Shown here in pieces: positions 1,990 through 25,124 of a DNA stretch of 34,271 nucleotides (position 1 is its first letter; every line of letters begins with the position of its first letter). The notes below the pieces were generated by a model. That model was not told the DNA's origin. It searched no databases and saw only the letters and a list, made by a program, of their open reading frames with translations. The DNA is from Candidatus Margulisiibacteriota bacterium (GTDB lineage: Bacteria; Margulisbacteria; Marinamargulisbacteria; UBA817): the NCBI GenBank assembly GCA_016779165.1, contig JADHOE010000014.1, positions 1 through 34,271 of the forward strand, read 5' to 3'. The position numbers and the translations under genes are program-made.

Positions 1990-2024
1990 CAATCCAATAT
2001 AAAACATTCCCCTAGATTCGTCAT
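1990..2024 (-). promoter_or_regulatory. Predicted promoter of murI (leaderless type)
   Basis: On the minus strand, ATGACG (2024-2019) and TATATT (2001-1996) are separated by 17 bases, and the ATG follows 6 bases later. It overlaps the end of the amidase gene, so murI may also be read from upstream. Confidence 0.4.
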
Positions 2025-3739
2025 TTATTTTTAAAATATTCATCAAGGCCATTGACAGTTGCAATGGCTATTTTTTCTTTGAATGCAGATGTTCTTAATT
2101 GCCTGTATTCATTTGCGTTTGTCATGAAACAAGGTTCAATAAGGACACCCGGCATTTTTGTGTGTTTAAGTATGTACATCTTGGCATGTTTAATGCCATT
2201 ATTTTTAAGTTTTAATTGCCTTACCATATGCTTTTGAATTAGTTTAGCTGCTCGTTTTTCTGACGGTTTATAGTAGTAGGTTTCAGTGCCGTTGGCAATG
2301 CTATTGATGAATGAGTTTACATGCACACTAACCAGAAAATCACCATTGGTTTGATTGGTTTTTTTTACCCGTTGATACAACGATGGATTGGTATCGTTGG
2401 ACCGTAATAATATTGTTTTTGCGCCTTTTTTATGCAGCAGCCGTTGGATTCGTTTGGATATATCCAATGTGTAATGTTTTTCATAATCCTTATTCTTTGT
2501 AACGGCGCCGGGATCATACCCACCATGACCAGGATCCAATACAATCACTTTTCCGCGAAGGGATGATGAGGATTTTACCCGTGGGTTTCTTTTTGCAATA
2601 GACGGCGGTTTCTGCCTGCCTTTTTGAAAGGTAAATAATGATGTTACTGGTGATGATTGGCTTACATTTACAAGCATTGGCTGATGGAAATGGAAGACCA
2701 TTCGGCATGTGGTTTGATGTTGACCAAATGTAATCTTTTTTATGGTGTCGGTTGTTTGCGATATGGGTGACGTTGGGCAAGCCGTATAAGAGAAATCCCA
2801 AAACATGCGTGGTGGGTCTATCAATGGGGTGCCGTTACCAACACGAATTCGACTGTTTTTATTTAGCAATACAGTGTTATCATCCACAATATCCAATGAG
2901 TTGAGCTTTTTTAGCACCACAATGGTTTGATTATTTATTAAATAATCAAAGCCCAAATCGTTTAGAAATGGTTGCAGGTTTACAAATAAGCGGCCCTCTT
3001 TAATGGTGGGGGTGTAGCGGAGGTTCTTTTTGGTTTCTGTTTGCTTTTGGATAACGTTTACAGCAGTTGACCCATTAAAAAATTCGTATGTCATGCTATT
3101 TTTATAAAGAGTTAATTGTGAACCTGATGCGGTTATTTTATACCCTAAAAAGGACAAAAAATCAGTGATATCATATTTGGTTTGTTGGTTTTGTTTTAGA
3201 GACGAAAGCGGCAAGTTTTTTTTTGAAATTGGCAAATGCATGTGGGTAATCTTGGCATTGTTTTCGTGGCTGATGGTTAATGGAATAGCGGAAGATGCCT
3301 GAGGTTGCTCAACCGCTTGTTGAGAATCGTACGCATAAAAATGATTATTTTTTTTTATGACATCTATATTTAATGACTGAAGTATGGGAATTAAAGGAAC
3401 ATACAGTCGGGTTTTATACATAAAAGGCACATTTGCAAATGCCTTTGGGGACCCATTGATCATATATGCCTTCGCATTTGGTTTAATATTAAGGGTTACG
3501 TCTTTCATTTCTATTAAATACGAATATGTTTTTCTGGATTGATTCATTGACCCATTCAGGTAGGACACCAGAGATCGAATGGGAATAAAATAGTGGTCAT
3601 TCTTTTTTACCATTGGTGGATCGAATATGATCGGGTTTTCAGAAAAGTAAAGGTTCGACGTTTGTTCAATGGCAAAGGCCAATGCCGATAGACATGAAAC
3701 GTAAACAATCACAACTGTGGCGAATAACCGTGAAAGCAT
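2021..3739 (-). CDS. N-acetylmuramoyl-L-alanine amidase with N-terminal copper-amine-oxidase-type repeats
   Basis: A 572-aa exported enzyme. It has a signal peptide (hydrophobic to ~residue 24, ALAFA), then a copper-amine-oxidase N-terminal-like domain (~30-140, with motif YFIPIRSLVSYLNG). A second similar region (~165-280) and an AMIN-like stretch follow before the catalytic Amidase_3 domain from residue ~396. Zinc ligands are H405 (DPGHGG), E420 and H473 (SVHVN), with catalytic E535 (LIEPCFMTN). It cleaves the amide between muramic acid and the stem peptide, probably in cell separation or wall turnover. Two in-frame ATGs exist (3742 and 3739). The second is chosen because it lies 7 bases after an extended -10 box. 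The gene is 45 nt downstream of the giant outer-membrane gene. Confidence 0.9.
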   Translation of the reverse strand: MLSRLFATVVIVYVSCLSALAFAIEQTSNLYFSENPIIFDPPMVKKNDHYFIPIRSLVSYLNGSMNQSRKTYSYLIEMKDVTLNIKPNAKAYMINGSPKAFANVPFMYKTRLYVPLIPILQSLNIDVIKKNNHFYAYDSQQAVEQPQASSAIPLTISHENNAKITHMHLPISKKNLPLSSLKQNQQTKYDITDFLSFLGYKITASGSQLTLYKNSMTYEFFNGSTAVNVIQKQTETKKNLRYTPTIKEGRLFVNLQPFLNDLGFDYLINNQTIVVLKKLNSLDIVDDNTVLLNKNSRIRVGNGTPLIDPPRMFWDFSYTACPTSPISQTTDTIKKITFGQHQTTCRMVFHFHQPMLVNVSQSSPVTSLFTFQKGRQKPPSIAKRNPRVKSSSSLRGKVIVLDPGHGGYDPGAVTKNKDYEKHYTLDISKRIQRLLHKKGAKTILLRSNDTNPSLYQRVKKTNQTNGDFLVSVHVNSFINSIANGTETYYYKPSEKRAAKLIQKHMVRQLKLKNNGIKHAKMYILKHTKMPGVLIEPCFMTNANEYRQLRTSAFKEKIAIATVNGLDEYFKNK

Positions 3740-3775
3740 CATTCATAGTGTGACAACTCAGTTTAATAAATTCAA
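3740..3775 (-). promoter_or_regulatory. Predicted promoter of the amidase (leaderless type)
   Basis: Minus strand: TTGAAT (3775-3770), 17-base spacer, then TGT-CACACT (CACACT at 3752-3747) with the TGn extension. ATG 3739 lies 7 bases downstream. No ribosome site is evident. Confidence 0.45.
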
Positions 3776-3787
3776 GAGAAGCAATGA

Positions 3788-6700
3788 TTATAGTTCAAGA
3801 CGAACATTAAAGAGCAACCCGTTAATCATCATGGTATTTTTTGAATCTACTCGGTCGATGATGCGTTTATAATAGCCTTCACCAGATACAATGAGTCGTT
3901 CCAGATGCTCACTGTTTTGAATAGGAATGGTTACACTTAAGTTGAGTGAGCCAAGATAAACCTCATCGTTTCTGGGCACAATTTGAATGGATAAAGATTC
4001 ATTACTGGTTTGAAAGAGCTGCGCTTTTTGGATGCTATTAAAACCAAATCCCCAGTTTTTTTCACGGCTTAAATCAAATTGAATTTCCATGTTTTCATAT
4101 TTAATGGGGTTATAGGTTATTTTTATTAAATCACTGTTTCCGTTGGTACTGGTTTCATTATTTTTTCTTAATTGTTTAAGGGTATAGTCGTATATAATTT
4201 TTAAACCAGATAATGGCTGAAAAATAAGGCCAGCCGTGCCGCTATTTTGATTTAAAAATTCTTCTTTAATTAACGCATTCGAAGAGGTCACACGTTGATT
4301 AAAATCTTGATATTCAAGTTCTCCTTTCAGTGTAAATAACCGATTTAAACTTAATTTTGACTCATGATTTGCAATTCGTTCAATTAAATTTAGGTGAGTA
4401 TCAGGTGAGATACTTAACGAAGATTCTGGGATATTAATATCATTGGATTTGAATTCATTAATGGTTTCATATTTTAAATATTCTTTGTTTTGTAAGGATC
4501 GAAATAAAGAGTATTCAATGCTTTGGTCAACTGTATCGACCAACCGATACAATGCGCCTGAATTGGCAGCTATCTTATTTCGATTAAAGTATGACGCTTC
4601 ATGTGATACATTATTCATAAATTTAACTTGCTTGAATGCATTGTATTTAAGGGTTCCTTTTTGAAGGGTAATAATGCTGTTATCAATGACGAGGGTGTCA
4701 TTGGTTGGATCGTTTGATGTTGTAGTATTTTCGTCTTTTTTTCTTTTTCTGCTTTGCTCAATACGCAACGTGGGTGATGTGATTTTGGTGAGCCATAACG
4801 GAATGGATGGTCCATTAACGTTAACCCCCATCATTTGGGTTTGATTGTATACTGTCGATTGGGTAATGTTTTCAGTGCCACTGGTTAAACTCAATGTACT
4901 AAATGAGTTGGAATTGGATTCATTAAACGAACTATCAAAACTGAATCGATTCAAATGTGATATGTTTGGTCGATAATTGACCCCTGTATCGTATGAATAA
5001 AATTTGGTTTTTGATTGACTAAACGTTTGATAGTTATTGGACTTACTATCGGTTAATAATGATTGGTAAGTATCAAATTTAACCATTGGAATGCTAAGCC
5101 CATCCACAGGCTTTAATGCATTGATTGCACCAAAATACCGGTCTTCATTGTATAGCTTTAGGCGATTATTTTCTCTTTTTTTTGTTTTTGAAATTCCCAC
5201 ATTTGAATAGCTGCTTTTAAACGGAGAAATTAAAAATGTTGGGGAGCCAAGGGTCTCTAAGAACGCATCATTCGCTATTTGGGTAATGTTATAGCCTTCC
5301 CTATCCTCAACCAGATTTTCTTGGCCTGGGATAGGGCTAATGGTTTCCTCGTGTGAAATGTTGATATTGCCATTCACCCAAGGAGCTGGTGTAAAATTAG
5401 TGAGGTGTGAATAATTGTAATACTCATCTAAAAATTGATCATTTGTGGTCATGGTTGTTTTGTGACTTGCTTTATCAAATGATGTTGAGCTTTGAATTGC
5501 TGAGCTCATATTTGAGTTAGCACTAAACCCAATAGTTTGGATGTTCTTTTGAGAATATGAAAGGGCGCCACTGCTATTATTTTTATCTGTGCTCAGTGAA
5601 ATATAAGGAATGAAAGACCCTGTTTGAATCAAATTATCGATGCTGAAGTTGTTGGTATATGTCAGTTTTGATTGAGTAATAAACGAATTTAATGATTGGT
5701 TGTTATTGGCGGCTTCGTTTTTTTGAGAAACACTGTTAGACAGCGAAATGGTGTCATCAGAAAATAAATAATCGAAAGTGTTATCGTACCGAATGACTTT
5801 GTTGGGTGTTTCTTTATAATTATTGGTTGAGGATACATCATCAAATTGTAGTTCATGTGATGTTTGAAGAAAAAACATATTAAAATTTAATTTGGTTAAA
5901 TAGCTGTTTTTTTTGTACATGGGCACGTAGTTTTTATTTTGGATTTCCTCTTGTTCGATAATGAATGACAGTCGTTCGTTTTTATTCATTTCCCAATTAA
6001 TTTCATGTAAGAATTGGGATGACCCTTGGTTTAAGTTAATGTTTCCAATGGGTAAAAAATTAGGGTCAACAATAGCCACTTTGTTAATGAATGACACGTT
6101 ATTTTTGGGTTTGTAATGGGATTCTAATGAATACGCATTCACATTTTTTTGATTGGGCGTATCATTTTGGTAAACATTGTAAGAGATTTCAACTTTTTGG
6201 TTGTTGGGAATGGTTTTATTAATAAATCGAACTTCAGCTTTTTCATAATTAATGTAGTAGTCCACATCTCGGGTTTGTGAAAAGCCGTTAATAAATATAG
6301 ATTCAGAATCTTTTTCAATGGCAGTATTGGTTTCTAATACATAAATATTATCGGGTTGTTGTTGGGTGAATGTTTGTTTTTTTGGCGTGCTTGTTTTTGA
6401 ATAATTATAATTAGAGTTGGCAATTTCAGTGTAAATATTCCAATGATCATTGACTTTTTTTTGAATTCGCAAATCGGTAACGCTATGATTTGAGTCGCTT
6501 TGGGAGCTGCTAATATCAGGCACATAGTCATAATCAAACTTGATCACATCAGAACTGCTTGGGTATCGATTTAAAACGGAATACCCCCCAACAATAAATG
6601 TGACCCCAACATCCATAAATGTTGAATTATCGTCCATGTAGGAAATTGTATAGTCACGCCCTTCCTCTAGAATAACTTCACTGGGGTTATACACTGTGAT

Positions 6701-8425
6701 TCGTTTGATGCCATTGTATTTTAATGGCAAGGATTTAAACTGAATTTGTTCTTGGTTGTATGTTTGGATACTTAAACCAGTCATGGAATGCTCAGAATTA
6801 AGCGACGTCAAATAATGGTAACTGGTTTTAACATTCGACATGGTGGGAGACACACTTGATAACAATGTAACAATGCCAGTGTAATAATTAATTGTATACT
6901 CAGACGCATCCAATATTCGACCATTTACTTCAATCGTCACTGGTTTATTTTGATCAATCGGGTTGTCTTTTAATGTGATTTTGTTTCCGTCAACCTGAAT
7001 GGGTTGCACGTTGTTTTGGTAGCTTAATAAACTATCTCTAACCACTGTTGATTGGGTTAGATGCGTGAGCTCCAATGAAAATGGCGCTTGTTCAAACCCG
7101 ATGCGTTTCTCGTTTAAATGAATGTATTGGTAGCTGATATTAATGACTCGATTGGATGCAATGGGGTAATAAAACAACACACTATTGGACGATTTTTTGT
7201 AAATATAGTCAATAAACTCCCGAGCTTTTTTTTGGTCTATGCTCACAGAAATGGTGTGGTCAATGGGTTGAGGATGGGTAAGGGCATATGGGCCAGGGGT
7301 TCCTTTGGATACAATTAAGTCATTGGCATTGGATGTTTTAAAGTGCTGATATGTTGCACTAACAGTGTCGTCAAAGGCAAGTTGTTTTGAAATGAATCGT
7401 ACCAAACCGGTGTCGTTTTTTAAATAATAATGCACCGACCGTGTTAACAACTTCGAATTTAAGTAAATGGACTCGGACCCTAACTTAATGGGAGCATTTG
7501 GCAATACAATATGATTATTTAAGACATCGTCTTGTTGTTTTATAACCATGGACATGTTCTTGGTAATGGTTATTGGTTCTTGTACCACAATGTTTTGAGA
7601 CGGGTTATAAGTATACATCGCAGCCGTAAAGTTTTTTCGCGATAACGACGGTATGAAGTCTTGAATGGGGTTGGTAAATTCATAAATCACTTTTATAAAG
7701 TCTAGTTTGTCTTTTTGATCAACAAATATGATTTTCCCCTCATAATAGTCAACGGTGTAATCCACATTTTCATCCAATAGCCGGTTATTTACATAAACAA
7801 TCACACTGCCTTCAAGTAAAAATGATCGCCCTACCTTGTAAATATTGGAGTTGGTGCCATAGGTTTCAAACTTTTGGGGTTCTGATTTTTCTTTTCCAAA
7901 GGTAACTTTTCCCTTCCAGTTGTCTTGTACTGTATTTGCTTCAACCCCATTTAAATATTTTTCAACATTCACAAATTCACCGGATGAATAATTGGTATTA
8001 AAATCACCAAACTGAAGTTCAGATGTTTTTTTTCGAATATAAACGTTGTAAATGCCAGGAAAATCAGGTTCTTTTTGAATGCTGTATTTAATCTCTGTGT
8101 CTTCGTCTAAGTGACCTTCAAGTTCAATATTATAGCGGTTTTCCAACTTTGGGGTTCCCCTCATAATTTCGTTGGGTATTTTTTTATAAACGGGATCTTG
8201 TCGAATGGTGTCCAATTTACTCAAGTCGTCGGTATAGTCTCGGCCACTTAGTTTTAATTCAACAAAACCAGATGAATTAACATCGGGGTACATATTGGCG
8301 GTACTAACGAGGGGAACTGTTATGTTTGATGTTGGTGAATAATCAGGAAACCCTGGGATGTAATCATTGTTTGAAAAAATAGAAATAGACGTAAAGATTA
8401 TAAAATAATAAAGGTATCTAAACAT
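3788..8425 (-). CDS. Giant repeat-containing putative outer-membrane/surface protein (1545 aa)
   Basis: A 1545-aa protein with an N-terminal signal-like hydrophobic segment (~1-18). Residues ~95-250 follow a pattern known from large uncharacterised outer-membrane proteins of diverse diderms: a 'LQFGDFNT' segment, then 'V.VNNRLL..NVDYTVDYYEGKIIF'. That module recurs in diverged form at about 206-250, 315-362, 388-434, 486-538, 570-635 and 703-752, ending in alternating strands such as IKVIYEF or VEISYNVY. From ~770 to the end the protein is Asn/Ser-rich with amphipathic strands, suggesting a large C-terminal beta-barrel ending NVRLEL. The start ATG shares one base with the queA stop (TAATG), so translation is probably coupled. 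The function is unknown; adhesion, transport or surface-layer roles are all possible. It is AT-rich compared with the right half of the window. Confidence 0.8.
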   Translation of the reverse strand: MFRYLYYFIIFTSISIFSNNDYIPGFPDYSPTSNITVPLVSTANMYPDVNSSGFVELKLSGRDYTDDLSKLDTIRQDPVYKKIPNEIMRGTPKLENRYNIELEGHLDEDTEIKYSIQKEPDFPGIYNVYIRKKTSELQFGDFNTNYSSGEFVNVEKYLNGVEANTVQDNWKGKVTFGKEKSEPQKFETYGTNSNIYKVGRSFLLEGSVIVYVNNRLLDENVDYTVDYYEGKIIFVDQKDKLDFIKVIYEFTNPIQDFIPSLSRKNFTAAMYTYNPSQNIVVQEPITITKNMSMVIKQQDDVLNNHIVLPNAPIKLGSESIYLNSKLLTRSVHYYLKNDTGLVRFISKQLAFDDTVSATYQHFKTSNANDLIVSKGTPGPYALTHPQPIDHTISVSIDQKKAREFIDYIYKKSSNSVLFYYPIASNRVINISYQYIHLNEKRIGFEQAPFSLELTHLTQSTVVRDSLLSYQNNVQPIQVDGNKITLKDNPIDQNKPVTIEVNGRILDASEYTINYYTGIVTLLSSVSPTMSNVKTSYHYLTSLNSEHSMTGLSIQTYNQEQIQFKSLPLKYNGIKRITVYNPSEVILEEGRDYTISYMDDNSTFMDVGVTFIVGGYSVLNRYPSSSDVIKFDYDYVPDISSSQSDSNHSVTDLRIQKKVNDHWNIYTEIANSNYNYSKTSTPKKQTFTQQQPDNIYVLETNTAIEKDSESIFINGFSQTRDVDYYINYEKAEVRFINKTIPNNQKVEISYNVYQNDTPNQKNVNAYSLESHYKPKNNVSFINKVAIVDPNFLPIGNINLNQGSSQFLHEINWEMNKNERLSFIIEQEEIQNKNYVPMYKKNSYLTKLNFNMFFLQTSHELQFDDVSSTNNYKETPNKVIRYDNTFDYLFSDDTISLSNSVSQKNEAANNNQSLNSFITQSKLTYTNNFSIDNLIQTGSFIPYISLSTDKNNSSGALSYSQKNIQTIGFSANSNMSSAIQSSTSFDKASHKTTMTTNDQFLDEYYNYSHLTNFTPAPWVNGNINISHEETISPIPGQENLVEDREGYNITQIANDAFLETLGSPTFLISPFKSSYSNVGISKTKKRENNRLKLYNEDRYFGAINALKPVDGLSIPMVKFDTYQSLLTDSKSNNYQTFSQSKTKFYSYDTGVNYRPNISHLNRFSFDSSFNESNSNSFSTLSLTSGTENITQSTVYNQTQMMGVNVNGPSIPLWLTKITSPTLRIEQSRKRKKDENTTTSNDPTNDTLVIDNSIITLQKGTLKYNAFKQVKFMNNVSHEASYFNRNKIAANSGALYRLVDTVDQSIEYSLFRSLQNKEYLKYETINEFKSNDINIPESSLSISPDTHLNLIERIANHESKLSLNRLFTLKGELEYQDFNQRVTSSNALIKEEFLNQNSGTAGLIFQPLSGLKIIYDYTLKQLRKNNETSTNGNSDLIKITYNPIKYENMEIQFDLSREKNWGFGFNSIQKAQLFQTSNESLSIQIVPRNDEVYLGSLNLSVTIPIQNSEHLERLIVSGEGYYKRIIDRVDSKNTMMINGLLFNVRLEL

Positions 8426-9450
8426 TAAGCAATTAGCATTGCGTCGCCATAACTAAAAAACCGATATCGATGGTCAATGGCAGTTTGATAACAGTTAATG
8501 GCTGTTTCGCGCCCAATGAGTGCTGATATTAAAATAAATAACGACGATTTAGGCAGGTGAAAATTTGTTAGTAAGCCATGAATGCTTTTAAATGTATGTC
8601 CTGGGGTGATGTATAAATTGGTGCTGGCTGTTTCAGCATAAAACACATTGTTTTTAATGTTGGATTCCAAGCAACGGGCAACTGTGGTTCCAACGGCAAT
8701 AATAGGCTTGCCATGAGCATTTGCTTCATTCAATTGTTTGGCGGCATCGGGTGTAATAATGTATGTTTCGTAATGCATGGCATGGTCCAATATGTTACAC
8801 GTTTTAATGGGGTTAAATGTTCCCAAACCAACATGAAGCGTTATAAAAATAATATCGATATTTTTTGATTTTAATTGAGCAAAAACATCATCAGTAAAAT
8901 GCAAGCTTGCTGTTGGAGCAGCCACAGCGCCAGGAACAGAGGCAAAAATGGTTTGATAGCGCGATTCGTGGCTGTTTGGGTTGTCTGATTTAATGTATGG
9001 TGGCAGTGGTGTTTGCCCAAATGCATCTAAAAAATCAATGCCTTGCTTGATTCCAATAATTTCTGCAGTGGCGTATTTTCCATTTTTGCTATGTATTTTG
9101 ATTTGATGATCGTGAACTACTAGAGAGTCACCCTCTGACACTTTTCGTCCATTCTTTAGCATAACGGTCCATGTTGTGGCTGATAGTGGGTGCAAGAAAA
9201 AACACTCAATGGTTGCCCCAGTGCTTTTAGTTGCTAACACCCGTGCCTTAATGACTTTGGTATTATTAAATACCAGCACACTATTGGGTGGAATAATGGA
9301 GCAAAACTCTTTAAATTTGTGATGCTTAATTGATGTTGATGATCGATTGTAATGCAATAACCTTGATTCGTCTCGGTTCTCTATCGGGGATTGAGCAATT
9401 AGCTCATCGGGAACAAAAAAGTCAAAATCTGATAATTTTGATTCAATCAA
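8425..9450 (-). CDS. queA: S-adenosylmethionine:tRNA ribosyltransferase-isomerase
   Basis: A 341-aa, full-length QueA. It transfers and isomerises the ribosyl part of SAM onto 7-aminomethyl-7-deazaguanine in tRNA, giving epoxyqueuosine. Family motifs are clear: LPPYI, ESRYQTIFA followed by GAVAAPTASLHFT, ITLHVGLGTFNPI, HAMHYETY, AVGTTVARCLE, and the C-terminal ITPGHTF plus LLTNFHLPKSSLF. The start ATG overlaps the stop of the upstream 172-aa gene by four bases (ATGA), and its stop overlaps the next start by one base. It is therefore the middle cistron of a tight three-gene operon. No other queuosine genes are in the window. Confidence 0.96.
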   Translation of the reverse strand: MIESKLSDFDFFVPDELIAQSPIENRDESRLLHYNRSSTSIKHHKFKEFCSIIPPNSVLVFNNTKVIKARVLATKSTGATIECFFLHPLSATTWTVMLKNGRKVSEGDSLVVHDHQIKIHSKNGKYATAEIIGIKQGIDFLDAFGQTPLPPYIKSDNPNSHESRYQTIFASVPGAVAAPTASLHFTDDVFAQLKSKNIDIIFITLHVGLGTFNPIKTCNILDHAMHYETYIITPDAAKQLNEANAHGKPIIAVGTTVARCLESNIKNNVFYAETASTNLYITPGHTFKSIHGLLTNFHLPKSSLFILISALIGRETAINCYQTAIDHRYRFFSYGDAMLIA

Positions 9451-13343: not shown

Positions 13344-16300
13344 ATGAAGCCACTTGTTAAGCCAATAGCCATTGCATTTGGTGCGCTATCCATTGGATAC
13401 GCACTTGTCGTGATTGCATTTTCTTTGCCTGCGGTTAAGCAAGGCGTTTCAGAAGCCATTCAATCCCGGTTATCTGACGCATATGGTATTCGTATCGAAT
13501 GGTCAGGCATCAAAACGGTTGGGTTGACCCGTTTAAAATTGAGTGATGTTCAGCTTGAAAAAAACAATCAATCTTTGGCAACAATACAAACAGTATCCAT
13601 TGGGATTCGCCCACTGTTTATATTCAACGGGTTTGCAGGGGTTCGATCTGTGACAATGGATGGGGTCAAGGTTACGGTTCATCGCAGCAAAGAAGGCCAA
13701 ACGTCATTCAAGAACGTATTCAAAAGCAGCGGCGGTCTAAGCATGCCTGCATTATCCATTCGCATGACCAATGTTTCGGGGGATTATGTGGATGAAACCG
13801 GGTGGGGAAAAGACCCTCAGCCATTTCGGCATGGGTTTAATGGGGGCGCTGTTAGCATTGATACGACAACCAAAGGGGCAACCTTTAAGGGTACCATTAA
13901 ACTCAATGAATCTGACGCTACTGCACGAATGGATGGCCATGTCAGAAATGGCAATTTTTTACTTAATTTTGATGTTCTTCGCCTGCCAACCGATCGATGG
14001 TCACCATATTTGATACCGATTAAAAAAATACAGGTGGGCCAACACAATGTTAATGTGAGTGGTCAATTGAGCAAAACCAAAACAGATAAACCAATGACCT
14101 ATCAAATTGATGTTGCGTTTTCTGATGCTGACGTCATCATTTATACCTACCCATTCACTCATGCATCTGGCCGTGTTCATGTTACCAATCTGGGTGGCCA
14201 CCAGCTGCAACTGCATGATGTTACGGCAACGCAATCCGGCATTCCTTTACGTGGCAGTGGCGGCATCCACTTTCAACAAAAAAATTACCAGTTAAGCATC
14301 AAACCATCGCAAGCCGTGAACTTGCAAGGCATGGCGTGGCCAGATGGCTCAATGTTTTCTAGGCTTAGTGGCCAACTGATGTTTGACGCTCAATTATTGG
14401 GCTCATTTTCAAAACCGTATCTTGATACCAGTATTTCAGCAAAAGGCGCTAAAATTGCTGATATTACCTTGGGGGATGTGCATTTAAATGTAATGTCAAA
14501 AAGCCACATATTTACCGTGACATCCACCCCGTCTTCAGATGTTCAAGTGTCGGGAAACATTATCAACAATCACATGGCGGTGGATTTCTTTCCCATTGAC
14601 ATCCAAGTGCCCGCGATTAAACAATCCATTCCTTTACGCATTGAATTGAATGGCGATATTAAGTCTCCAATGGTAATTGCAACCATGGATAAGAATATCC
14701 CTATTTTCGGATATACCATGTCAAAAGTAAGGCTTGAGTTGGAAAAAAAAGCAGAGGGGTGGGGTGCAAAAGATGCAACCATTGATTTAAAAAATGGCCA
14801 GTCACTCACTGTGGATATTCACTGCGTTGATTTTAATGATTGTCGCATTATTCAACAGGGGCTTTCAAAGGCCAATGCCAATGTTTACCCACGAATCAGC
14901 GCAATGAGCTCGGATATCCAATTAAAGAAAATAGGCAGGCAATGGGAAGTTAATGCATCGACCAACATTCAAGGTGTGGGCGCCAATGCCTTTGGCATCC
15001 GGGCAGATACATACCATGTGTCATTTATTCAACGCGCCAAGGCCCGGGCTTTTCACATTAACCAATGGCAGTTGGGTTCACAAAAAATTACGGGCAAAGT
15101 TATGGCAAAAAACAATGCCATCGACACCATTAACCTGTCGTTTTCAAATGTTGATTTATCGGCGTTGGACCAATCATTGGGTGCTTTACGTTGGTATGGC
15201 TGGAACCTTCATGGCACGGCCACCGGGCAATTATTTACCAAGAATAAACAACGTCAGCAATTGGCCATGCAGATGCAAATTCAGGGATTGCGTTCCACAC
15301 ATGGCCAGTTTGGGGATGTGAATGTTGTTGCAGGTATATCTCCAAATCATATTGATATTCAGTCCCTTCAGTTGACAGGGCTTCATGATGCAGCCATTCA
15401 AGCAACAATTACCAATGAAGATGATTTCACCGTTCGCTTTGGCAAACAGTCACAGATTCAACTTGAGGCATTGGATATATTTTCAAATGAAAAGCTTTTT
15501 GGCCGAGTAGAGTTAAGTGGTACTTTAGGAAAGAAACAATCAAAGTGGGTGCACGACCTTCACGTCAAATCGAGTAACCTACAATTTGATGGGATTCAAT
15601 TTGATCATTTGTTGTCATCATCCAAATCCGAAGAACAAACAATTCAAATCAATGACCTTCAATTGGGAATTGATGGTGGCATATTGCAATTTAAGGGCAG
15701 CGGCCCAAATGTGGTATCCTCAGATCAGTTAACGCCTGGAATAACAGGAGAATTTTCTTTTAAACATGTGGATTTGGGGGCATTGTCAAAACTGTATCAA
15801 TCGTATCAGCGTTCATCATTGATGGGCGGTAATCGTTTGGTTTTGAATGGGTTCAATTTTAATCAACGCTATGCGTTTCATCAATATCAATTGGATAACG
15901 TATCGTTATTTAATGCGATTCAACAGCAAGTGTCAGATGGTTTAGCTAAGCCGTTAATTACCGGGCGCTTAAATGGCGCTGGTTGGCTGGATACGGATGA
16001 CCTTTCTAAAAGTTTTATTTCCATGTCCATTGAACAATTTGGATGGAATAACATTCGAATGAAGGCCATGACAATAAACGCCAATCCAATGCATTCGAAC
16101 CAGATGGGCATTGCGGTTGGTATCGATGATTTGGTGTTAAAAAAGGATACCTTGACCCGATTGGACGTAAGGGTAGCCTATGATTTCAAAAAAAACGAAT
16201 GGTATTCTACAAGCCAACAGTTAAAATACCGGGGCCATACAACCACGAACCCATTAATATTTCAGTATAAAAATCAGCAATTAATGTTAAAAGGAAACTT

Positions 16301-17966
16301 AAAAAATCAAAGCATTAATTTGATTTCTTTTGTATTGCCTGCCATTGAATCCATGCAAAACAATGGGCAGGTATCGTTTGTATTTACCGGCCCAATGGAC
16401 CGTATTGAATTGGTAGATGGCCAGATTGAACTGCGCAATTTTAGGTTAAACTTCAATAAAAATGCATCTGCATTTAATTCGTCATTGGTTGTGAAGCATG
16501 CTGATTTAGTGGTTGATAAGGGGCAACTAAACACCCCGTCTATATTGCTTGAATGGAAAGGCGAGGATACGTATCGGCGGGTCACACGAGATGAAAAAAA
16601 CAATCAAATGAAAGTGCGTGGATGGGTTCAGTTAGATCATCTTGATCTTGTGAATAAACGCACCATGTTTATTGATTACAATTTGCAATTAAGGCAAGGG
16701 TTTTTCTCACTGAATTTTCCACAATTTTATAGTGGGGATGTATTGGTTTCATCGTTGGTTATTTCTGGCAAACAAGCATATCCGTTAACTCGTGCGGGCA
16801 AACTAAACGTCGCAGAAACCCTTGGAACACAAGATGAAGTTGGCCCAACCATTCAAGGTAATGTGGCACTGAGGGATGGGGTATTTAACTTAAAACCGCC
16901 CAGTGGAAAGAAAAAAAAGCCGCGATTCATGCTTGATTTGGGCGTTACCTTGGGGCCGGGAAATTACATACAGGGCAGTTTGTTTGGCAGTGGGCTATAT
17001 AACCTTGCCAATCATGTATCTCTTGAAGTGGATCCTGCGGTAGAATCGACGCCGTTTCGTATGTCAGGCACCTTAAATGCCCCCAATATGTCTGCTCGCA
17101 TTCCTTTTTTTGAAGGTCGCTTGACCATTTTTGATGGCTCATATGAGTTGCTCCGACCCGAACAACAACAGCATTATTTTAAAGAAACACCAGAACTTAT
17201 ATCGGAACAATACATCGAGATTTTTCCTAAAAGCAAGCAAGGGCAGATGTCTTTGGGCGTGGGCATGCACCTTCGTGCCTTTCGAAAAAAAATAGAGCTT
17301 GCACCTACTCAAAATGAACTGCTATCAGATCCCTATTCGTTTCCCGCAGTTGGTTTGGTGATCGATGGGGATTACCGTGATATTTCAACCGAATTTACTG
17401 TGTTGGATTATGCCTTGGATTCTCACATGACCCTTTATCCTCAATATGAATTTCGAGGGGCACATGCCGTACAATTAACAAATCAGCAAGGCAGCCAAGC
17501 CTCAGCCTATGGGCTTAGTTTGATTATGCCAACCATATTCACCAATGTTGAATCGCTTGATTTTAGTCAGTTGGGCCGGCAACAAGTGAACAGCTTGGTT
17601 AGAAGTTCCATACGCCCGTATGAACGTCGCTTAGCGAATCGGCTAGGCATTTATGATTTGCGGTTGGATTATGATTTTGGTCGTCGTTTGTTTAGTAGCC
17701 AGCAAGATGCCTTTTTTGATTCTGATTTGTTGGGCATTCTTGTGGTATCCAATGTGTTTAACCCCTCGTTATTTTTGAATATACGAACCGATGTGAATGT
17801 GTCCTCCGATGAATCATCGCATCAACGCGATTTTAAAGTTACGCAAGCCGAATTAAAGTACTTTGTTAGCCCTAATTTTAGTTTTGGCTTAAAAAATATT
17901 AATGAATATTCGGATGTTGGGTTGTTTGATCCACGATGGACCATAAATTATGGGTATGCTTTCTAA
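13344..17966 (+). CDS. tamB: TamB-like (DUF490) envelope-spanning protein
   Basis: A 1540-aa protein. One N-terminal membrane anchor (~7-30) precedes an AsmA-like start (IRIEWSGIKTVGLTRLKLSDVQL). A very long run of short beta-strands follows, as expected for the lipid-carrying groove of TamB/AsmA-like proteins. The last ~250 residues look like the DUF490 domain, including the ADLV, 'GNVALRDGVFNL' and 'FEGRLTIFDGSYEL' segments, and end in a strand-rich tail with terminal F. It probably moves phospholipids between the membranes. The tamA-like gene follows with a 17-nt overlap, the classic TamA-TamB pairing although in reversed order. It shares an operon with amino-acid genes, which is unusual. 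Confidence 0.88.
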   Translation: MKPLVKPIAIAFGALSIGYALVVIAFSLPAVKQGVSEAIQSRLSDAYGIRIEWSGIKTVGLTRLKLSDVQLEKNNQSLATIQTVSIGIRPLFIFNGFAGVRSVTMDGVKVTVHRSKEGQTSFKNVFKSSGGLSMPALSIRMTNVSGDYVDETGWGKDPQPFRHGFNGGAVSIDTTTKGATFKGTIKLNESDATARMDGHVRNGNFLLNFDVLRLPTDRWSPYLIPIKKIQVGQHNVNVSGQLSKTKTDKPMTYQIDVAFSDADVIIYTYPFTHASGRVHVTNLGGHQLQLHDVTATQSGIPLRGSGGIHFQQKNYQLSIKPSQAVNLQGMAWPDGSMFSRLSGQLMFDAQLLGSFSKPYLDTSISAKGAKIADITLGDVHLNVMSKSHIFTVTSTPSSDVQVSGNIINNHMAVDFFPIDIQVPAIKQSIPLRIELNGDIKSPMVIATMDKNIPIFGYTMSKVRLELEKKAEGWGAKDATIDLKNGQSLTVDIHCVDFNDCRIIQQGLSKANANVYPRISAMSSDIQLKKIGRQWEVNASTNIQGVGANAFGIRADTYHVSFIQRAKARAFHINQWQLGSQKITGKVMAKNNAIDTINLSFSNVDLSALDQSLGALRWYGWNLHGTATGQLFTKNKQRQQLAMQMQIQGLRSTHGQFGDVNVVAGISPNHIDIQSLQLTGLHDAAIQATITNEDDFTVRFGKQSQIQLEALDIFSNEKLFGRVELSGTLGKKQSKWVHDLHVKSSNLQFDGIQFDHLLSSSKSEEQTIQINDLQLGIDGGILQFKGSGPNVVSSDQLTPGITGEFSFKHVDLGALSKLYQSYQRSSLMGGNRLVLNGFNFNQRYAFHQYQLDNVSLFNAIQQQVSDGLAKPLITGRLNGAGWLDTDDLSKSFISMSIEQFGWNNIRMKAMTINANPMHSNQMGIAVGIDDLVLKKDTLTRLDVRVAYDFKKNEWYSTSQQLKYRGHTTTNPLIFQYKNQQLMLKGNLKNQSINLISFVLPAIESMQNNGQVSFVFTGPMDRIELVDGQIELRNFRLNFNKNASAFNSSLVVKHADLVVDKGQLNTPSILLEWKGEDTYRRVTRDEKNNQMKVRGWVQLDHLDLVNKRTMFIDYNLQLRQGFFSLNFPQFYSGDVLVSSLVISGKQAYPLTRAGKLNVAETLGTQDEVGPTIQGNVALRDGVFNLKPPSGKKKKPRFMLDLGVTLGPGNYIQGSLFGSGLYNLANHVSLEVDPAVESTPFRMSGTLNAPNMSARIPFFEGRLTIFDGSYELLRPEQQQHYFKETPELISEQYIEIFPKSKQGQMSLGVGMHLRAFRKKIELAPTQNELLSDPYSFPAVGLVIDGDYRDISTEFTVLDYALDSHMTLYPQYEFRGAHAVQLTNQQGSQASAYGLSLIMPTIFTNVESLDFSQLGRQQVNSLVRSSIRPYERRLANRLGIYDLRLDYDFGRRLFSSQQDAFFDSDLLGILVVSNVFNPSLFLNIRTDVNVSSDESSHQRDFKVTQAELKYFVSPNFSFGLKNINEYSDVGLFDPRWTINYGYAF

Positions 17967-19596
17967 GGTAATTGCAATTTTACTGTTGGTGCTTGGCCCA
18001 ATTCATGCGGCTTTTATTCATAATGTCGATGCAGGCAATGTGTCATCTGAACCACTAAAACACCACATCATTGCCAGATTTAAGGGAAGGTTTGTTCATG
18101 ATCTGCAGTTGGAGCAATTCATGCATCAATTGCGAAGCAAAGGGACGGTTAAAACAGCGAGCCATGCCATTCATACCAAGGCTGGGTTGACTACGTTAGA
18201 GGTTACCGTCGAAGAAACCCAAGTGATTACAGGCATTCAGTTTCGTCATTTGCCCATGTGGGATGGTCGCATTCGACTCGGCCTTAAGCATGCGGTTGGG
18301 CATCGCCTTAACTATCAATGGCTGGTCGAGGACATTGAATACATGAATAATGTATTGGTCGAAGAGGGGTTTCCTTATGCATCAGTGCGGTCCATTCAGG
18401 TGTTGGACGATGGCACCTTGGACATTGATATCGAGTCTCCCACGCTTGCTGGCGTGTCTTTTATTGGGCTTAACCAAACAAAGCCATGGGTGGTCATGCG
18501 TGAGTTGTCATTAAAGAATGCCCAACCCATTGATCAGTTTTCTTTGGATATGGATTTGGAGTCATTAATGGCCATGCCTTATTTTTCTTCGGTGTCACCA
18601 ATCATTTCAAGGGTTAGTTCAGACAACATAACCATTGTTTATCGGGTGAAAGAACGAAAATACAATCGGCTTGATATTGGGTTAGAAGAATTGGAAGATG
18701 ATCAAGGGGTGGCCATTTATTCCATGTTTAAATTTCACCATGCATTTATTTATTCTGATGCCCTTGCCCTGCAAACACAGCTGGGTTATTTGAATGAGTT
18801 TAATATTCGTAACTACCAGCTGCATTATCAACAACCATGGCTATTTAATCGTTATCATATTATTGCTGATGCAAAAGCCTTTATGACATTCCGAAGCGAA
18901 CTCATGCAGAATGATACCCAAAGCTACAATACCTCACGTCAAGGCGGTCGTTTGTTTTTTACCAAACCATTTCGACGCTTTCGATTAAACCTTGGTGCTG
19001 GTGTACGAAGTGAGCGTGTTGTATCAGATATTTCAACCTATCAATTAAACACCGTGAGTGTTGTGGCCGATCATCGTGTTGTGAACGCATTGAATAATCC
19101 GAAACAGGGGCATCAAACCAAGTTGATTTACGATAGAGGCGGCGAATTTTTAGGGGTTGCCATGGGTGGTGTTGATTTTTATCGGCTTAGTTTGGAACAT
19201 GCGCAATTTATTCCTATGTTTCCAAGGCTTACATTGGCCATTCGAGGTTTTGGTGGTATCTATGAAAAGCAGTCAGATGAACGCACGTTCGAGACAGAAA
19301 AGTTTAGCCTGGGTGGTTCGAATTCCTTGAGGGGGTACCGGGAGGGGGCATTTTATGGGAATTACCGATTGTCATTTAATATTGAACCTCGGTTTCATAT
19401 TAGCGATGGCGTAGTGGCTGTTGCCTTCTACGATGTTGGTTTCATTAATGATACCATTCAGGCAATACCCAAGGACTCAATTCACTCTGGCGCTGGTGTT
19501 GGTGTTCGGTTTATAACGGCAGCACTACCGCTGCGATTCGACTTAGGCTTCAGTGATGATGTGATGATTCACTTTAATATTTCTCAAACCTTTTAA
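17950..19596 (+). CDS. tamA: TamA/BamA-like Omp85 outer-membrane protein
   Basis: A 548-aa protein, close to the length of E. coli TamA (577). It has a signal peptide (to ~HAAF) and periplasmic POTRA-like units over ~30-235, with repeats of the 'G.Y.......V...VEE' kind (ITGIQFRHLPM, then VEEGFPYASVRSIQV and VSFIGLNQTKPWVVMREL). The C-terminal beta-barrel contains the diagnostic loop-6 motif LRGY (~460-463, in SLGGSNSLRGYREG) and ends in HFNISQTF with terminal Phe. It should insert or help assemble outer-membrane proteins, with the TamB-like protein just upstream. The start could be 17950 or 17956; both lie within the tamB end. Confidence 0.9.
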   Translation: MGMLSKVIAILLLVLGPIHAAFIHNVDAGNVSSEPLKHHIIARFKGRFVHDLQLEQFMHQLRSKGTVKTASHAIHTKAGLTTLEVTVEETQVITGIQFRHLPMWDGRIRLGLKHAVGHRLNYQWLVEDIEYMNNVLVEEGFPYASVRSIQVLDDGTLDIDIESPTLAGVSFIGLNQTKPWVVMRELSLKNAQPIDQFSLDMDLESLMAMPYFSSVSPIISRVSSDNITIVYRVKERKYNRLDIGLEELEDDQGVAIYSMFKFHHAFIYSDALALQTQLGYLNEFNIRNYQLHYQQPWLFNRYHIIADAKAFMTFRSELMQNDTQSYNTSRQGGRLFFTKPFRRFRLNLGAGVRSERVVSDISTYQLNTVSVVADHRVVNALNNPKQGHQTKLIYDRGGEFLGVAMGGVDFYRLSLEHAQFIPMFPRLTLAIRGFGGIYEKQSDERTFETEKFSLGGSNSLRGYREGAFYGNYRLSFNIEPRFHISDGVVAVAFYDVGFINDTIQAIPKDSIHSGAGVGVRFITAALPLRFDLGFSDDVMIHFNISQTF

Positions 19597-24503: not shown

Positions 24504-25124
24504 ATGAAAAAATATTTATTAATTTTAGGAATTTTATCAATGAACGTATTGGCAAGCCCATTGGACAACCTATCGGTTTACGGTGGACTGGGACTTGGTG
24601 GTGAAGCAACTCTAAAAACAGATGGTAATTCGGACTCAGCTGATGCTGATGGCATGAATATAAATGGTGGCGTTCGGTATTTATTTAAAATTAATGATAC
24701 GGTGTCCGTTGGGCCATTTGTTGATTACATGTCAGAAACCAAGTTTGAAGGTGGTATTAAAGGCTCTGCATTGTCTTACGGTGTGAGTGGTAAATATCAG
24801 GACAAATCAGGGGTTTATGGCATTCTATCGTTGGGGTTGAACAGCGTTGATACTAATGTAGGTGAAGTTTTAGCGGAAAATTCTGAATTACTACTTAATT
24901 ATTTAGGATATTCCGGTAGTGTGAGTTCAAAGGTTAAAAATGGCGCCACCATTATGGCAACCGTTGGCTACATGGTAAACGAAAATATCGCTGTAGAGGC
25001 TGGCTACCGAAACATAAGTTTTAATGTTGATTCAATTGTTCAAGTTGATGGTCTCGGTGATTCCAAATTAAAAGAAGATCTTAACTACTCGACCTTCACA
25101 TTGGGTGGCGCGTATCACTTCTAA
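24504..25124 (+). CDS. Small outer-membrane beta-barrel protein (206 aa)
   Basis: A signal peptide (MKKYLLILGILSMNVLAS) is followed by alternating amphipathic strands (GGVRYLFKI, VSVGPFVDYM, YGILSLGLNS, IMATVGYMV, AVEAGYRNISF), ending in FTLGGAYHF. The terminal Phe and length suit an 8-stranded OmpA/OmpW-like barrel, but no precise family is recognised. Unlike many genes here it has a long leader and a strong AAGGAG site, and its own terminator follows. Its base composition is more AT-rich than the genes around it (one row at 24841 has 19 G/C of 60). These signs suggest a highly expressed, separately controlled porin-like protein. Confidence 0.85.
   Translation: MKKYLLILGILSMNVLASPLDNLSVYGGLGLGGEATLKTDGNSDSADADGMNINGGVRYLFKINDTVSVGPFVDYMSETKFEGGIKGSALSYGVSGKYQDKSGVYGILSLGLNSVDTNVGEVLAENSELLLNYLGYSGSVSSKVKNGATIMATVGYMVNENIAVEAGYRNISFNVDSIVQVDGLGDSKLKEDLNYSTFTLGGAYHF

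Follow-up and report, generated by a model that had tools for sequence, protein, structure and literature searches.

The locus considered here raises the question of what a 1545-amino-acid (aa) protein with repeated modules and a barrel-like C-terminal half does in the cell envelope. Its gene lies in a window of 34,271 nt (the whole stretch of DNA analysed, contig JADHOE010000014.1 of assembly GCA_016779165.1) from a Candidatus Margulisiibacteriota bacterium (Marinamargulisbacteria, UBA817). Open reading frame (ORF) calling and translation confirmed a real gene on the minus strand with an ATG start. Our analysis indicated that the product is probably a distant relative of SprA/Sov and would act in Margulisbacteria as an outer-membrane translocon within a type-9-like export route. 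An original prediction, made from the sequence, had proposed an outer-membrane protein with modules carrying a DY motif (DY modules), either an undescribed envelope machine or an adhesin, with relatives lacking a known job. The repeats, the barrel, and the machine as a type of protein were upheld, whereas the word “undescribed” was not, since the predicted fold points to SprA; the nearest known relatives appear to be the outer-membrane pore of type 9 secretion.

Two overlapping partial models, residues 24-1200 (predicted local distance difference test, pLDDT, 78.9; predicted template modelling score, pTM, 0.47) and residues 420-1545 (pLDDT 80.9, pTM 0.54), were obtained with AlphaFold2 and 17 relatives. 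Structure prediction of the repeat block and the C-terminal part, which the original prediction had proposed as a check, yielded both repeat and barrel folds. Six long strands preceded module 1, a pair was found between modules 5 and 6, and 35 followed module 6. Together, the two partial models supported an outer-membrane protein with repeats and a long-stranded barrel. In the Foldseek search with the model of residues 24-1200, the four best Protein Data Bank (PDB) matches were all SprA (8gl6, 8gl8, 6h3i, and 6h3j; E 3.7e-16 to 8.7e-11), followed by one phage tail chain at 2.3e-7 and other barrels from 2.3e-5. VIA-align placed the SprA chains at ranks 1, 2, 3, and 6 for the same model (Z 20.3, 18.8, 18.6, and 14.6), with the best non-SprA chain at Z 16.0, and these alignments comprised 520-583 residues spanning 23-1177 of the model and 132-2358 of SprA. 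The likeness to SprA/Sov extended over the N-terminal strands, the DY modules, and the initial part of the barrel; the two differ in length (1545 aa vs 2403 in the Flavobacterium johnsoniae PDB record) and in phylum. The same model displayed the two features taken to mark the SprA fold, a very large barrel and DY-module domains; in this respect the C-terminal model was not discriminating.

The relationship among the modules was examined with one profile per module region, which was run against the protein itself and 2000 shuffles. The profiles were derived from alignment A1, from which the partial genes L040 and L061 and the short paralogues described below had been excluded. The results showed that many pairings among modules 1, 2, 3, 4, and 6 scored higher than the best shuffle; the module-2 profile reached module 6 at 33.4, module 1 at 25.2, and module 4 at 15.7 bits, with the best shuffle at 6.7. 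Module 5 (residues 571-636) was reached by the other profiles at no more than 5.5 bits, below the best shuffle, so the six modules originally claimed are better described as five plus one diverged. A common strand pattern was seen in the same five modules of the AlphaFold2 model. The C-terminal half, predicted to be rich in Asn and Ser and barrel-like, was indeed richer than the N-terminal half in both residues (Asn 12.2% vs 9.0%, Ser 12.0% vs 9.6%), and the long strands after module 6 agreed with this description.

At the level of sequence, the link to SprA was weak. Three long homologues matched TIGR04189, “T9SS translocon Sov/SprA” (T9SS, type 9 secretion system), at 3e-12 to 4.8e-11, and whole-genome scans with this model gave matches at E ≤ 1 in 29 of the 36 Margulisbacteria genomes, including all 15 near-complete ones; the match of the protein itself (1.6e-5; window 7712-7840) overlapped module 1. 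Most matches in the genome scans fell at profile positions 587-716, which correspond to the DY region. SprA_N (PF14349), searched at E ≤ 1, was matched by 0/36 genomes and by no control genome either. Shorter SprA-like paralogues of about 850-1030 aa were observed beside the long gene in some genomes, and the one at locus L062 was the best TIGR04189 match of all (5e-14). A short paralogue searched against the PDB matched only SprA (E 0.036). A gene for an NHL β-propeller protein was located directly upstream of the short paralogue at L062 and L064.

The SprA-like gene is a core gene of Margulisbacteria. Protein searches found it in 32/36 genomes and in all 15 that were at least 90% complete, and the four genomes without it were 55, 66, 77, and 89% complete. 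It was single-copy in its own genome (1.15 Mb, 71% complete). The best conserved part of the family was residues 44-290 (alignment A1). A scan of named genomes gave 19 SprA-like loci, whose informative titles were Ca. Marinamargulisbacteria, Margulisiibacteriota, and UBP8; alignments A2 and A3 contained 17 of them, L072 (truncated) and L085 (unknown bases) being left out. A scan of genome contigs with the single protein returned four pattern matches and no relative. Four metagenome-assembled genome records labelled Actinomycetota or Rickettsiales (L078, L079, L084, and L085) also carried a Margulisbacterial SprA-like gene, and these labels are probably deposit errors.

The genomes also encoded candidate cargo for such a pore. 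The type 9 C-terminal sorting domain (CTD; TIGR04183, Por_Secre_tail, which we take to be the type A CTD) exceeded its cut-off in 35/36 genomes, compared with one among the 14 controls. Twenty regions were fetched and 19 match-bearing ORFs were read from them, four of which ran off the region at the N-terminal side; in all 19 the CTD match stopped 0-15 residues short of the ORF end. The CTD proteins of the own genome included a subtilase of 1501 aa, a cadherin-like protein of 1238 aa, and two short proteins of 193 and 215 aa. The shuttle family was likewise present, with PorV_fam (NF033709) matching in 36/36 genomes at E ≤ 0.01 and exceeding its cut-off in 15. Two T9SS hallmarks, CTD cargo and the PorV/PorP-SprF shuttle family, were thus found. 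The two kinds of genes were paired. Among the 150 matches listed per search, where the shuttle matches cover 30/36 genomes, at least 51 CTD matches in 21 genomes had a PorV match within 500 bp downstream on the same strand, vs 0.12 expected, and among the same matches none of PorV lay upstream of the CTD gene or on the other strand. On contig 13 of the own genome, the gene after that of a CTD protein was an ORF of 753 aa that gave a PorV-like match (2e-17) to an own-built profile. At the nine loci outside the class of the source organism, a CTD gene flanked the SprA-like gene in six (0.49 expected; profile of local CTDs). Three of these six directly adjoined it in convergent orientation, and the one at L055, which was scanned, was a subtilase; such a gene may encode a cargo or a protein that takes the place of the PorU sortase.

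This arrangement resembles the cognate pairs of type B CTD and PorP/SprF in F. johnsoniae, as described in PMC12618676, in that a shuttle-family gene directly follows the CTD gene and the own genome (G000, contig 27) has a PorP_SprF (PF11751) match over the cut-off; it differs in that the CTDs here were found with TIGR04183 and PF11751 passed in only 9/36 genomes, so that many of the shuttles belong to the broader PorV family. Three CTD matches lay in giant open frames of 16,989, 16,438, and 10,112 aa, and a SprA-like ORF of 1033 aa was found about 4 kb beyond the last of these (G008, contig C40). The control genome of Thermus composti matched TIGR04189, below the cut-off, and also the sorting-domain model; the type-9-like set may therefore be wider still.

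Because the genomes hold CTD cargo, paired shuttles, and one conserved SprA-like barrel, the simplest account is that this barrel is the export pore. In Flavobacterium, according to PMC10994853, SprA is a 36-strand barrel capped on the outside, its side opening binds PorV, which receives the CTD of the cargo, and secretion draws its energy from the GldLM motor. In F. johnsoniae, a shuttle gene directly downstream of a CTD cargo gene was needed for secretion of that cargo (PMC12618676). The pore function, side opening, cargo binding, and partners of the Margulisbacterial protein would be similar by analogy. Cargo that bears a Sec signal and, at its C-terminus, an Ig-like sorting domain would enter the periplasm, and the CTD would lead it into the large SprA-like pore. 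A barrel of the PorV/PorP family, whose gene often directly follows that of the cargo, would dock at the side opening, bind the CTD, and bring the cargo to the cell surface. The cap and the inner or periplasmic domains of the pore may be formed by the DY modules.

Several observations weigh against this assignment. The TM-scores against SprA were low (0.23-0.26), and the root-mean-square deviation (rmsd) was large (8.9-10.4 Å over 520-583 residues). The C-terminal model alone resembled a generic large barrel with no clear preference: SprA was first in Foldseek at 1.2e-8 but tied with TonB-dependent receptors from 2.2e-8, and it was absent from the 50 VIA rows of this model, an absence that by itself speaks neither for nor against. 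The TIGR04189 cut-off of 200 bits was passed in 0/36 genomes, with the best relative at 51.3 bits, and the protein is not filed as a member for this reason. Family profiles searched against the PDB by sequence did not find SprA. The DY-module region also matched the phage distal-tail models TIGR02217 and DUF2460 below their cut-offs, and the DY motif alone is therefore insufficient for a claim on SprA. The CTD-like domains resembled FlgD_ig (PF13860 matches), so some CTD calls may represent something other than a CTD, and no CTD or PorV gene adjoined the SprA-like gene in the window or at the loci within the class. Finally, the motor and sortase models were over their cut-offs in 0/36 genomes, which for the proton-driven motor and the ring covers GldL, GldM, and GldN (TIGR03513, TIGR03517, and TIGR03523; PorL, PorM, and PorN), with GldK/PorK, SprE/PorW, PPI, and Plug not searched for, and for the sortase PorU (NF033707), nearly all listed matches of which lay in the C-terminal part of the model. 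No control genome passed these four cut-offs either, and distant forms may therefore be present. As a separate candidate, a phage distal tail protein was rejected, since the matches (27.9 bits vs a cut-off of 136.65 for TIGR02217, 21 vs 30.4 for DUF2460) covered the profiles only in part.

Among the other explanations, the one that survives best, although we regard it as unlikely, is a barrel with a role in tethering or building the envelope, such as an LPS-type exporter of the LptD kind or Deinococcus SlpA of the S-layer deinoxanthin-binding complex (SDBC; 7zgx, 8agd), in which only the DY modules would be SprA-like and the CTD cargo would leave through another pore. SlpA is also a very large single-chain outer-membrane barrel, and 7zgx aligned over 450 residues at a lower rmsd (5.5 Å); LptD structures occurred among the Foldseek matches of the model of residues 24-1200, and the neighbours, queA and the amidase gene, have envelope or housekeeping rather than secretion roles. 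However, the E values of the four SprA chains were better by at least five orders of magnitude, their Z reached 20.3 vs 13.0 for 7zgx, the Pfam search (E ≤ 1) revealed no SLH or LptD-type domain, and searches of the own genome gave no further full-length SprA-like protein. An adhesin or a structural protein of the cell surface, built from Ig-like repeats, was offered by the original prediction and would fit the repeats, the Asn/Ser richness, and the size, but is quite improbable: the long strands flanking the modules are predicted to be membrane-barrel strands, adhesins are not usually single-copy and conserved phylum-wide as this protein is (most strongly at residues 44-290), and the predicted fold points to the known T9SS translocon SprA in a genome context of secretion. 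Least probable of all is a TonB-dependent-like receptor, or a porin, that serves a large substrate and is plugged by the DY modules, since the C-terminal model does match such proteins but 35 predicted strands follow the last module vs 22 in TonB-dependent receptors, and no plug domain was detected (Pfam, E ≤ 1).

The best reading is that the SprA-like protein serves as the pore of a type-9-like export route lacking the known motor and sortase, a variant of the known T9SS translocon type. In published abstracts, the T9SS is termed specific to or confined to Bacteroidota (PMC7463736, PMC7906972) or widened to the Fibrobacteres-Bacteroidetes-Chlorobi superphylum (PMC11205867). Literature on Margulisbacteria with type 9 secretion and on the T9SS outside Bacteroidota, covered in part and without preprints, contained no report for Margulisbacteria. 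The phylum includes an animal symbiont, a marinamargulisbacterium of Trichoplax, which was screened for secretion systems with EffectiveDB; the tool paper cited there names types III, IV, and VI in its title (PMC6784892). We suggest only tentatively that a type 9 route with a translocon, cargo-specific shuttles, and CTD cargo, and with neither the Gld motor nor PorU, operates throughout Margulisbacteria. If this were true, the SprA-PorV-CTD core would predate Bacteroidota and reach beyond them, that phylum would have gained its rotary motor and sortase later, and Margulisbacteria would drive the pore in another way or leave it unpowered. A phylum-wide set of SprA-like pore, CTD cargo, and paired shuttles would separate the secretion core from the motor; the route would be a natural minimal T9SS for study, and from it the surface proteome of a phylum with hardly any cultured members could be predicted.

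Table 1. Features of the SprA-like locus and of related loci (L, locus; G, genome; C, contig).
Feature	Position	Strand	Residues	Basis or remark
SprA-like outer-membrane translocon candidate	3788..8425	-	1-1545	1545 aa, ATG start; ORF and translation
Hydrophobic N-terminus, probable Sec signal	8369..8425	-	1-19	read from the sequence
N-terminal strand block	7859..8149	-	93-189	six long strands, within best conserved region; AlphaFold2 model, alignment A1
DY module 1	7667..7813	-	205-253	profile test
DY module 2	7337..7483	-	315-363	profile test
DY module 3	7118..7261	-	389-436	profile test
DY module 4	6806..6949	-	493-540	profile test
Diverged module 5	6518..6715	-	571-636	repeat relation not significant by sequence
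DY module 6	6167..6313	-	705-753	profile test
C-terminal barrel region	3791..6154	-	758-1545	35 predicted strands of at least 10 residues, AlphaFold2 model
queA (presumed), coupled upstream gene	8425..9450	-		TAATG; similar ORF directly upstream in 14/21 loci within the class
N-acetylmuramoyl-L-alanine amidase, neighbour	2021..3742	-		Amidase_3, 178.9 bits
Short SprA-like paralogue	L062:6253-8934
Short SprA-like paralogue	L063:7614-10163
Short SprA-like paralogue	L064:7321-10410
Short SprA-like paralogue	L066:7610-10600
CTD gene, convergent and adjoining, outside the class	L055:3921-6056
CTD gene, convergent and adjoining, outside the class	L056:5350-7560
CTD gene, convergent and adjoining, outside the class	L060:3877-6192
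CTD match in giant frame	G028:C3:61403-61645			frame of 16,989 aa
CTD match in giant frame	G034:C52:54268-54507			frame of 16,438 aa
CTD match in giant frame	G008:C40:100020-100271			frame of 10,112 aa

The immediate neighbours were as originally described. The stop codon of the upstream ORF, which we take to be QueA, overlapped the start codon of the SprA-like gene in TAATG. At the 21 loci within the class, besides those with a QueA-like ORF directly upstream, two more had a contig end at this position. On the other side, the adjoining wall amidase was confirmed by its Amidase_3 match, and the same gene also contained a Cu_amine_oxidN1 domain in the Pfam scan. An amidase match was present in the fetched flank of 12 of the 21 loci; this neighbour is conserved in only some members of the class, and the explanation does not depend on it. 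Neither the QueA-like ORF nor the amidase was found at the nine loci outside the class. Further along the window, positions 13344-19596 encoded a 1540-aa protein with a weak DUF748 match, presumably TamB-like, directly followed by an Omp85 (TamA/BamA-like) protein. A small outer-membrane barrel protein (OMP_b-brl, 41.3 bits), separate from the finding described here, was encoded at 24504-25124.
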